The notes beneath the pieces were generated by a model, which worked only from the letters and a program-made list of their open reading frames with translations, searched no databases and was not told the origin of the DNA. Below, in pieces: positions 2,957 through 62,722 of a DNA stretch of 64,000 nt. Source of the stretch: Brochothrix campestris FSL F6-1037 (lineage in GTDB: Bacteria; Bacillota; Bacilli; Lactobacillales; Listeriaceae); the NCBI RefSeq assembly GCF_000525915.1, contig NZ_AODH01000009.1, positions 62,001 to 126,000 of the forward strand, written 5' to 3'. How positions within the stretch are numbered: position 1 is the first letter of the stretch; every line of letters starts with the position of its first letter. The translations under genes were made by a program, and so were the position numbers.

Positions 2957-3197
2957 AACAAAAGAGTCCCATCCCCTTAAAAGGGACGAGACTCGCTCGC
3001 GATACCACCCTTATTAGTACGGCAAATTGCCTCACTAAAAAATGTACTCTCTCAACACTTTAACGCAGTGGCTACGGCTAAGCTTACTTGATTCAGCTTA
3101 ACAGCTCATGGATGATTTTCAACCGTGACCCCTTTTTGACCTTTCACCATTCGTCAAATCGCTAGAAAAGGGCGGATACAGTTAACGTTCCATTCGT
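2957..3197 (-). promoter_or_regulatory. Isoleucine T-box riboswitch with terminator
   Basis: The minus strand carries the T-box consensus AGGGTGGTATCGCG (2998-3011), which pairs with the tRNA acceptor end. It is followed by an intrinsic terminator (about 2964-2995: GAGTC/GACTC arms, GTCCC/GGGGA inner pairs, TTTTG tail). Further 5' lies a Stem I region with GAAAATCATCC at 3111-3120. The likely specifier codon is ATC, isoleucine, at 3114-3116, followed by the usual purine. Uncharged tRNA-Ile should favour the antiterminator and ileS expression. The 5' limit is estimated. Confidence 0.93.
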
Positions 3198-3203
3198 CGC
3201 TTA

Positions 3204-3797
3204 TTATTTTGCTGGAATTTCTTTGTTCTCTTCAATCACTTCAATAGATTGAGTCGTTTCTGTTGGTGTTTCAACGCTTTGTTTCTCCGCAACATCTACA
3301 AATTTATCGGTGATGTTTTGTTCAACATCAATGTCATACTCGAGTGAATTTGACCAATCATCATGTTCAAGTAAGTCAAGTTGTGTCGTTACAAGTAAGC
3401 GTAAACGCTCACGGAACACTTTAGATTGACGTTTTAACTCTTCAATTTCGACCGAGAGACGATGCGCTTTGTTTAAGCCCTCTTTTACAAGCTCTGCTGC
3501 ATCGGCTTTTGCTTCAACAACAATCAATTCGGCTTCTTTCTGTGCTTGTCTGCGTGTTTCATCAGCTGAATCTTGTGCAATCACAAGTGATTTATTCAAT
3601 GTCGATTCAATTGTTTTAAAGTGGTCTAATTGCTCATTGCTTGTTTGCAAATCGCTTGTTAATTTTTTATTTTCTTTAAGGACTAATTCATAATCTTTAA
3701 TGACTTGTTCTAAAAAATCGTTAACCTCATCTTCATCATAGCCACGTAATTTTTTACCGAATTCTTTATTGTGAATATCTAATGGTGATAACGGCAT
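3204..3797 (-). CDS. divIVA: Cell-division protein DivIVA
   Basis: Membrane-curvature-sensing coiled-coil scaffold that recruits division and polarity partners to septa and poles. The N-terminal lipid-binding domain starts MPLSPLDIHNKEF and contains GYDEDEVNDFL near residues 19-29. Long coiled-coil stretches follow (about 30-65 and 80-140), then an acidic tail rich in Thr and Glu. The 197-residue length is slightly above the Bacillus protein. A TATTCCACCTCC-type ribosome site lies just upstream of the ATG. It sits between ylmH and ileS, its conserved place at the end of the ylm block. Confidence 0.95.
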   Translation of the reverse strand: MPLSPLDIHNKEFGKKLRGYDEDEVNDFLEQVIKDYELVLKENKKLTSDLQTSNEQLDHFKTIESTLNKSLVIAQDSADETRRQAQKEAELIVVEAKADAAELVKEGLNKAHRLSVEIEELKRQSKVFRERLRLLVTTQLDLLEHDDWSNSLEYDIDVEQNITDKFVDVAEKQSVETPTETTQSIEVIEENKEIPAK

Positions 3798-5528: not shown

Positions 5529-6194
5529 TTAATTGACAGTTACAAGTTCTGTTCCAACTCTTACAAACGTGGCCCCTTCTTGCAACGCAATCTGGTAATC
5601 ATTCGACATTCCCATTGATGCTTCAAGGCAAGGTGCATGTTTTAATTGGAGTGCTTGAACGTCATTAGTTAGTTGCTTCAGTTGTGCAAACACTTCGTGA
5701 AGTTCCTGTTCGCTGGCCACAAACGGCGCCATCGTCATTAACCCCACGACTTTAATGTTTGGATAATGCGTAAGTTGCTCGATAAATGGAATGACATCGT
5801 CTGGCGCCATACCATGTTTATTTGCCTCACCGGCTACATTTACTTCCACAAAACAATTGCTTTCTTCGGTTGCACGTTTATTAATTTCTTTCGCAAGTGA
5901 TAAACGATCGAGTGAATGAATATACGTTGTAGCTGGCAATACTTCTTTTACTTTACGGGTTTGTAAACTGCCGATAAAATGCCAGACAATATCTGGATAT
6001 TTGTCACTGAGAGCTGCCTGTTTTGCTGTTAAGACATCGGCACGATTTTCACCGAAATGACGTTGTCCTAAGGCGTAGAGTTGCTCAATGACATCAATCC
6101 CCACTGTTTTTGTGACCGCCACTAGTTGCGCTGGTTGACCGGTTGCCAACATTTTATTCGTGACCTTCGTAAAGTTATCAGTCAGTCCCATCAC
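5529..6194 (-). CDS. ylmE: YggS-family PLP-binding protein YlmE
   Basis: The 221-residue protein is a single-domain alanine-racemase-like barrel that binds pyridoxal phosphate without known catalysis and helps PLP homeostasis (YggS/PROSC family). The PLP lysine lies in LVAVTKTVG (about residue 29). The family motifs HFGENRADVL (about 46), WHFIGSLQTRK (about 71) and MGMSNDYQIAL (near 195) are visible. It follows ftsZ by 8 bp and precedes sepF, its usual place. The annotated start MMGL can begin at either of two Met codons. Confidence 0.93.
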   Translation of the reverse strand: MMGLTDNFTKVTNKMLATGQPAQLVAVTKTVGIDVIEQLYALGQRHFGENRADVLTAKQAALSDKYPDIVWHFIGSLQTRKVKEVLPATTYIHSLDRLSLAKEINKRATEESNCFVEVNVAGEANKHGMAPDDVIPFIEQLTHYPNIKVVGLMTMAPFVASEQELHEVFAQLKQLTNDVQALQLKHAPCLEASMGMSNDYQIALQEGATFVRVGTELVTVN

Positions 6195-25675: not shown

Positions 25676-25720
25676 AAAAAAGATATTAACAGTAACAACG
25701 AAACGTTACTGTTAATATCT
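25676..25720 (-). terminator. ctaB terminator, distal copy with T-tract
   Basis: Perfect 16 bp stem AGATATTAACAGTAAC / GTTACTGTTAATATCT with an 8-base loop at 25681-25720, followed on the minus strand by five to six T. An identical 40 bp hairpin lies at 25919-25958 on the other side of the repeat element. Confidence 0.85.
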
Positions 25721-25918
25721 TGAGACTGAAGATAAACGCTGTACTAGGTCGTTACGACTTGCTCGCTCGGGATTACGTACCATCAATACGCGCACCGTCA
25801 CTCGCTCGTCGTTCCTACTATAACACCGTTTCTTTTCAGTCAAGTCATTTTGTACACAAAGTCACTGTAATAGCATTACAAAGAAAATGAAGTCTGTTTA
25901 GACTTTGTCTACATTCTG
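25721..25918 (+). repeat. Large terminator-associated repeat, copy B
   Basis: A 198 bp non-coding element between two identical copies of the ctaB terminator hairpin. In the plus direction it starts TGAGACTGAAGATAAACGCT and ends GACTTTGTCTACATTCTG. A central block of about 78 bp (around 25744-25821, starting CTAGGTCGTTACGACTTGCT) matches the copy at 38520-38839 with only two mismatches. The outer parts form an imperfect inverted repeat (GACTGAAGATAAACGCTGT with ACACCGTTTCTTTTCAGTC). I find no coding frame. It occupies the place where Bacillus has ctaC-ctaG. Confidence 0.85.
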
Positions 25919-25958
25919 AGATATTAACAGTAACAACGAAACGTTACTGTTAATATCT
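25919..25958 (-). terminator. ctaB terminator hairpin, proximal copy without T-tract
   Basis: The same 40 bases as 25681-25720, including the loop AACGAAAC, but on the minus strand it is followed by CAGAATGTAGAC rather than T. It is nearest the ctaB stop at 25997. Without a T-tract it is unlikely to terminate by itself. Confidence 0.8.
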
Positions 25959-25996
25959 TATCGTCTTTCTTGAATTCATGCAATCATCAACTGTGC

Positions 25997-37537: not shown

Positions 37538-38482
37538 ATGCTACAAATCTTCAAAACCGATATGAATACCGGCAAATTAATTGAACTCGATGAGATTGAA
37601 AATCACTGTTGGGTCAATTTGATTAATCCAACGACGGAAGAAATCAACCACATTGTTGAACACACGAACGTGCCGGTTGAATTTATCCGCGATCCCCTCG
37701 ATAACGATGAAAGTTCACGGATTGAACGTGAGGATGATAACGTCCTTATCATTGCCGATTTCCCGATTGAAAATACGGATGATGATGTCAGTTCAATTTC
37801 GTTTGAAACAATGCCCTTGGGGATTATTATTACGAATAAAGTTTTCATCACTGTTTGTTCAGAAAATTCACCGATTTTACAATCGTTCATCCACCAAAAG
37901 GTACGTAATTTTTATACTAATATGAAAACACGGTTTGCCTTGCAAATCTTATATTTAATCTCAACCAGTTATCTGCGTTTGTTAAAACGACTTAATCGTC
38001 ATTCTGATCGGATTGAAAAAGAATTACACCGGTCAATGAAAAACAAACAGCTGTATGACTTGATGGGTATCGAAAAAAGTTTGGTTTACTTTGTAACCTC
38101 ACTTAAAACAAACAAGGTTGTCTTAGATAAAATGTTCCGTCAAAATATGATTCGAATGTACGAAGAAGACCAAGACTTGCTTGAAGATGTTATTATTGAA
38201 AACCGCCAAGGTCTTGAAATGGCAGAAATACATAGTAATATTTTAAGTGGGATGATGGATGCCTATGCCTCTATCATTGGGAATAACATGAACATCGTGA
38301 TGAAATTTTTGACGACGGTCACAATCATTCTTTCCTTTCCAACAATGGTCTTTAGTTTTTATGGCATGAATGTCAAACTCCCATTCATGGATAATGAATA
38401 CGGTTGGATTATCGCCATCGGCTTCGCTGTTTTGATTGCAATTGTCACAGCCATCTTTTTTTCACGAAAAAAATTCTTTTAA
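37538..38482 (+). CDS. corA: CorA-family magnesium/divalent cation channel
   Basis: Pentameric membrane channel for Mg and related divalent ions. The 314-residue protein has a large N-terminal cytoplasmic domain, a long helix, and two C-terminal membrane segments. The selectivity motif YGMN lies between them near residue 276. The loop after it, KLPFMDNEYGW, is typical. The C-terminal tail SRKKFF is basic. The ribosome site ATGAGGAGGTTATTAAC precedes the ATG. Ion specificity cannot be read from the sequence alone. Confidence 0.95.
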   Translation: MLQIFKTDMNTGKLIELDEIENHCWVNLINPTTEEINHIVEHTNVPVEFIRDPLDNDESSRIEREDDNVLIIADFPIENTDDDVSSISFETMPLGIIITNKVFITVCSENSPILQSFIHQKVRNFYTNMKTRFALQILYLISTSYLRLLKRLNRHSDRIEKELHRSMKNKQLYDLMGIEKSLVYFVTSLKTNKVVLDKMFRQNMIRMYEEDQDLLEDVIIENRQGLEMAEIHSNILSGMMDAYASIIGNNMNIVMKFLTTVTIILSFPTMVFSFYGMNVKLPFMDNEYGWIIAIGFAVLIAIVTAIFFSRKKFF

Positions 38483-38488
38483 CTAGAC

Positions 38489-38519
38489 AAGCCCCAACTG
38501 AGATACTCAGTTGGGGCTT
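38489..38519 (+). terminator. corA terminator hairpin, proximal copy without T-tract
   Basis: Perfect 14 bp stem AAGCCCCAACTGAG / CTCAGTTGGGGCTT with loop ATA, 7 bp after the corA stop. It is followed by CAGATTGTAGAC instead of T. The same 31 bp recurs at 38840-38870. Confidence 0.8.
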
Positions 38520-38839
38520 CAGATTGTAGACAAAGTCTAAAGAGACTTCATTTTCTTTCGAATGCTATTACAGTGACTTTGTTTATAAGATGATAAGACT
38601 GAATAGAAAGGCTGTTCTATCCTCTCGTTTAATCAGCTAACTTCTATGATATTTCATGGAAAAGTAGCGACGGTAAATAGTCGCTATTCTTTTCCATTCC
38701 AATATCTTCAAAGTTGAACGAGCTGATTTCACTTTCGTTCTAGTAGGCACGACGAGCGAGTGACGGTGCGCGTACTGATGGTACGTAATCCCGAGCGAGC
38801 AAGTCGTAACGACCTAGAACAGCCTTTCTATTCAGTCTC
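38520..38839 (-). repeat. Large terminator-associated repeat, copy C
   Basis: A 320 bp non-coding element between two identical corA terminator hairpins. Read on the minus strand it starts GAGACTGAATAGAAAGGCTG. It shares the 78 bp core with the 25.7 kb copy, then has an extra nested palindrome region (ATGGAAAAG...CTTTTCCAT around GCGAC/GTCGC), and ends GACTTTGTCTACAATCTG. AGACTGAATAGAAAGGCTGT plus TCTA occurs as a perfect 24 bp inverted repeat at its two inner sides. Orientation relative to the upstream gene is the same as in the 25.7 kb copy. Confidence 0.85.
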
Positions 38840-38874
38840 AAGCCCCAACTGAGATACTCAGTTGGGGCTTTTTT
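38840..38874 (+). terminator. corA terminator, distal copy with T-tract
   Basis: The same 31 bp hairpin as 38489-38519, here followed by TTTT within a run of six T. The tail overlaps the 3' end of the convergent hydrolase gene. Confidence 0.85.
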
Positions 38875-62599: not shown

Positions 62600-62624
62600 A
62601 AAAAAAGCCACTTAAAAAGTAGCT
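62600..62624 (-). terminator. lysC terminator
   Basis: Minus-strand stem AGCTACTT / AAGTGGCT (one G-U pair) with a TTT loop, followed by six to seven T. Confidence 0.8.
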
Positions 62625-62722
62625 CAGATTGTAGACAAAGTTGAATCAAACTGCTTTTTCTGTGAAAAGTGATGCAGCGACTTTGTTTACGAGGTGATTA
62701 GATTGAATAGGTAGACTACGAT
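62625..62722 (-). repeat. Short copy (D) of the terminator-associated repeat
   Basis: Between the lysC stop and its terminator the minus strand reads TATTCAATCTAATCACCTCG then TAAACAAAGTCGCTG, a spacer with AAGCAGTTTGATTCAACTTT, and finally GTCTACAATCTGA against the hairpin. All three modules occur in the 38.5 kb copy. AAACAAAGTC and GACTTTGT give it an internal inverted repeat. Confidence 0.75.

Follow-up and report, generated by a model that had tools for sequence, protein, structure and literature searches.

Group IIC introns insert after terminator hairpins. Insertion sequences of the IS1182 family are also attracted to structures of this kind: some members target palindromes, and IS1272 is reported to use terminator hairpins, with a blunt deletion and no duplication of the target (PMC4923244). 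The direct repeats listed for the family range from 2 to 60 bp (PMC7335449). Here we describe a short element of Brochothrix campestris, found in a window of 64,000 nt (the whole stretch of DNA analysed). Its insertions do not have the blunt partial hairpin deletion without duplication which is reported for IS1272: the full hairpin is present on both sides.

We will start with the corA locus; gene names were assigned by reading translations. The corA gene (37538–38482, + strand) has its stop codon 6 nt upstream of a hairpin, AAGCCCCAACTGAGATACTCAGTTGGGGCTT, which is present in two identical 31-bp copies at 38489–38519 and 38840–38870 (+). Each of them has a perfect 14-bp stem and an energy of −15.8 kcal/mol when folded as DNA (z −8.2). 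The proximal copy, the left target-site duplication, is followed by CAGATTG, the start of the inserted element. The distal copy, the right target-site duplication, has retained the original T-tract (TTTTTT, 38869–38874, +) and is the only one of the two detected by a terminator scan. Between them lies an element of 320 bp (38520–38839, +, terminal C counted), which ends in CAGTCTC. The identical flanking hairpins and the position of the T-tract had been reported in a sequence-only reading of this DNA, and both are confirmed here. If the element and one hairpin copy are removed, the corA 3′ region becomes an ordinary terminator. A convergent gene for an alpha/beta-hydrolase-like protein has its 3′ end at the corA T-tract.

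The element has imperfect terminal inverted repeats (CAGATTGTAGACAAA / CAGACTGAAGATAAA). The left one is CAGATTGTAGACAAAGTC (38520–38537, +); the right one (38823–38839, −) has the genome consensus S-AGACTGAAGATAAACG when read inwards and is AGACTGAATAGAAAG in the corA copy. This large form differs from a small form of about 200 bp by an extra internal module at 38620–38731 (+), about positions 101–212 of the element, with a terminator-like hairpin on both strands. In the window's genome (G000) the module is also found on its own, outside the element, and in neighbouring partial copies (L028, L029), so that the element is modular like BOX.

The window contains a second copy, of the small form, after ctaB on the − strand. 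The anatomy is as at corA with a different hairpin: identical 41-mers at 25681–25721 and 25919–25959 enclose an element at 25722–25918, whose left repeat (IRL) is on the 25918 side. Here also the hairpin proximal to the gene (25919–25959) has no T-tract and the distal one (25681–25721) has it, as AAAAAA on the + strand. Two partial copies are found on the + strand, each immediately 3′ of a terminator hairpin: a truncated left end alone at 89–132 (hairpin 56–88), and a truncated or diverged copy at 62625–62717 which keeps only its left part (hairpin 62606–62624). An Rfam scan of the window gave only a T-box leader elsewhere (2979–3206, − strand, RF00230, 119 bits); a group IIC intron or a known RNA family was accordingly rejected as an identity for the element.

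The sequence-only reading noted at both loci the same orientation of the element with respect to the upstream gene. This is true of corA and ctaB, where IRL is turned towards that gene, but it is not a rule: among 19 copies with a duplicated hairpin a poly-A/T tract lies only outside IRL in 7 and only outside IRR in 3, while 8 have a tract on each side and 1 has none.

Copies in the rest of the genome were counted from pattern searches and extracted stretches of sequence. The element gave 61 matches in the window's own genome. The 18-bp left end, with up to 3 mismatches, gave 61 + 53 matches, and its reversed control gave 2 + 3; some of the former are internal palindromic partners of a left end. 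We inspected 97 left-end occurrences. We looked for a strong hairpin stopping not more than 4 nt from the element. It is present at 65 of 84 ends on the left and at 31 of 46 on the right, and at 117 of 7620 positions drawn at random from this DNA (1.5%). Many of the remaining ends have visibly weaker hairpins, and others are internal partners. Thus most copies do not lie away from terminators, a distribution that would have spoken against the earlier proposal of terminator targeting. Plasmid and phage sequences were also searched, with no match to the element.

The hairpins are different from one locus to another. The same hairpin is found left and right in 13 of the 25 two-ended copies with enough flanking sequence, and none of 600 pairings between left and right hairpins of different copies match. 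We conclude that the hairpin is a target duplication specific to each locus, and the earlier argument that it is host sequence, which was based on the unlike hairpins of corA and ctaB (31 and 41 bp), stands. Since at most copies the hairpins adjoin the element boundary, one might consider them as part of it, a cassette with a terminator at each end which spreads its own terminators. We give this practically no credence and reject the hairpin as an element part: hairpin sequence and length vary with the locus while the element is conserved, and in the sister genome described below the same flanks enclose a hairpin with no element at all.

About half of the two-ended copies have no visible hairpin duplication. 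Many copies, truncated or decayed, have a single recognisable hairpin, and several (L009, L012) keep one hairpin or part of it. Some draft contigs are broken inside copies, and their ends carry matching hairpins (C24/C12, C40/C32, C42/C5). A particular arrangement is found in L233 (G000:C40:1-700, about 110–200), where two element left ends diverge from one common hairpin; it suggests a second insertion into a hairpin which was already duplicated.

For comparison with a sister species we used one genome of the same genus (G001). It has seven copies with a duplicated hairpin at sites of its own (L207, L209, L210, L211, L212, L216, L218). Its ctaB site has matching flanks and a single hairpin of diverged sequence, with no element: it is a naturally empty site. 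Nor is the element present 3′ of the sister corA gene, whose protein is 91% identical. We looked there for an exact empty site and rejected it, as a different terminator array is found in this position, with three terminator-like units arranged in tandem or nearly so (ACCACTTGATGATATTTT.ACAGTCATCGGGTGGTTTTT and a variant; L230).

The palindromic module from the right-hand part of the element (TAGTAGGC..CGTAATCCCGA..CCTAG) also appears in G001 outside the element, in tandem arrays with units of 102 bp and 220 bp (L228, G001:C1:2010300-2012300; L229, G001:C1:2320500-2322200). These arrays are possibly a separate repeat family.

The absence of the element at corA and ctaB in the sister species bears on a further question, whether the element is kept as a useful 3′-UTR or insulator structure and is not a selfish insertion. 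Copies are many, and the RNA of the hairpin–element–hairpin unit folds very strongly, with −175 kcal/mol (z −14.6). Such a fold follows from the inverted repeats, and many copies are truncated or decayed, so that we find a maintained function improbable; the long single hairpin of the transcript is taken as a by-product.

The element has the features of a MITE: a length of 197–320 bp, no transposase gene, an intergenic location, dozens of copies, terminal inverted repeats and a flanking target-site duplication. Its relationship with IS1182 comes from the ends. The 18-bp left end is present in 44 named stretches, mostly of Firmicutes DNA; most of these ends are preceded by unrelated hairpins, and in several cases the hairpin is duplicated. 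Some of the 44 matches are probably due to chance, being in coding sequence and without a hairpin. In an Exiguobacterium metagenome-assembled genome (MAG) the same ends, with an identical left one, enclose a transposase of the IS1182 family (Pfam DUF772 and DDE_Tnp_1_6; NCBIfam NF033551, 5.6e-146). The left and right hairpins of this insertion sequence differ, and the right one is found again on the left side of a further copy in that assembly (L104): we read this as a collapsed repeat.

Complete IS1182 insertion sequences with CAGACTGTAGACAAA-type ends were found in relatives and across the phylum. We have 12 insertions in 8 genomes (L152–L155, L235–L237, L248, L253, L254, L259, L260), with palindromic duplications of 17–35 bp which are almost always centred on the dyad. 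The claim that rho-independent terminators are targeted and their hairpin duplicated, first made from two loci, thus extends to the whole genome, to the sister species, to unrelated Firmicutes and to full elements of the IS1182 family. A different subgroup of the family, with GAGGCCACTGAAAAAG-type ends, makes duplications of 8–9 bp (L162, L243, L247, L261, L262), so that duplication of the hairpin seems to be bound to a subgroup. For many distant IS1182 copies the automatic end finder gave no believable ends, and the counts refer to the others. In the genus itself we searched for a resident IS1182 transposase: the draft genome of the window, 85% complete, has only a remnant of 31 amino acids and the sister genome has none. 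An intact resident insertion sequence was thus not found in these two genome sequences, which counts against the mobilisation proposed below.

Two other elements should be mentioned. In a Clostridiales MAG (DUNO01000066.1, L084) an element of about 1.5 kb with the same ends, its left end at 3028, is flanked by an identical 23-bp hairpin duplication (AGGGAAGCACCAGGTGCTTCCCT). It codes for a MarR-like regulator and a Flavodoxin_5 protein, with no transposase: it is a passenger transposon of the hairpin-duplicating group. In a Hungatella MAG (L078) an element of 1.26 kb with its left end at 6027 shows hairpin duplication and codes for no recognised transposase; of its two open reading frames, of 208 and 133 amino acids, the first has no Pfam match.

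We consider it very probable that the element is a MITE moved in trans by a DDE transposase of the IS1182 family, from the subgroup which targets hairpins (ends CAGAYTGTAGACAAA), by joining at the hairpin base followed by fill-in. Sequence comparison demonstrates the ends in common with IS1182 insertion sequences, the terminator hairpin as target, the duplication of the complete hairpin (17–41 bp, with a length that follows that of the hairpin) and an empty site with one hairpin. The transposase would recognise an extruded hairpin or cruciform at its base, or else a hairpin in single-stranded DNA. Both 3′ ends of the element would then be joined to hairpins on opposite strands, each at its 5′ base; at a four-way junction these two bases would be close together whatever the length of the stem. 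Gap filling of the two single-strand hairpins would give two hairpin copies, and the original T-tract (or A-tract) would remain with the outer one. As the outer tract stays with the outer hairpin, one working terminator is left and the insertion should be nearly harmless.

The same footprint would result if the hairpin was attacked in single-stranded DNA, on the lagging strand or in a transcription bubble, instead of in a duplex cruciform, with repair producing the second copy. Terminator hairpins are transcribed, and the transposases of IS200/IS605 use single-strand hairpins. Duplex DNA is the normal target of DDE transposases of the DDE_Tnp_1 type; we regard the single-strand route as possible but less likely than not. 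It is a variant of the explanation given above, and the confidence placed in the two overlaps. Hairpin-base joining is to be compared as well with the mode reported for IS1272/TnSha1 (PMC4923244), in which the stem is cut bluntly and the hairpin is replaced; duplicates would appear later by recombination or gene conversion. The copies with one or a partial hairpin, such as those in L009 and L012, agree with it. We consider this mode very unlikely here: full duplications, exact or nearly so, are found at 13 loci of this genome, at seven in the sister genome and in the 12 insertions of full insertion sequences, and the empty ctaB site of the sister has one complete hairpin.

Transposition by hairpin-base joining may have a wider meaning. 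We are inclined to think that a clade of IS1182-family transposases targets the shape of DNA, the base of an extruded hairpin, so that the duplication is the hairpin exactly and its length is not fixed. If this is true, it would account for the 2–60 bp listed for the family, and it would allow MITEs to spread into terminators while a working terminator is left behind. The natural insertions now available are many, dozens in one genome and more in other Firmicutes. They show that DDE transposition can have a hairpin as its target, with a duplication as long as this hairpin dictates, and they make the odd range of direct repeats in IS1182 testable. Such a choice of target spares the host, as the terminator survives each insertion.

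In the literature searched we did not find an IS1182-derived MITE with duplicated terminators, nor the exact duplication of the hairpin, its restriction to a subgroup or the expansion of MITEs; ISfinder may record such an element or such a pattern. The element of the window is a new MITE family, while palindrome targeting and direct repeats of 2–60 bp in IS1182 were already on record. It differs from group IIC introns, as it has no Rfam intron match and has paired terminal repeats and a duplicated hairpin. Pneumococcal BOX, RUP and SPRITE resemble it in being short, intergenic, structured, modular and present in many copies in a Gram-positive species; RUP is associated with a transposase family other than IS1182. 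The part of PMC10969869 consulted mentions no hairpin target duplication for these three repeats. IS1272 and TnSha1 of staphylococci are closer: they belong to the IS1182 family and enter terminator hairpins with no sequence preference (PMC4923244). The published mode is a blunt partial deletion of the stem, whereas the element of the window duplicates the whole hairpin. The closest systems are the IS1182 insertion sequences (NF033551) with CAGACTGTAGACAAA-type ends: they share with our element the terminal repeats, the terminator palindromes as targets and direct repeats with the length of the hairpin, and they differ from it by their transposase gene and by a size of about 1.5 kb.
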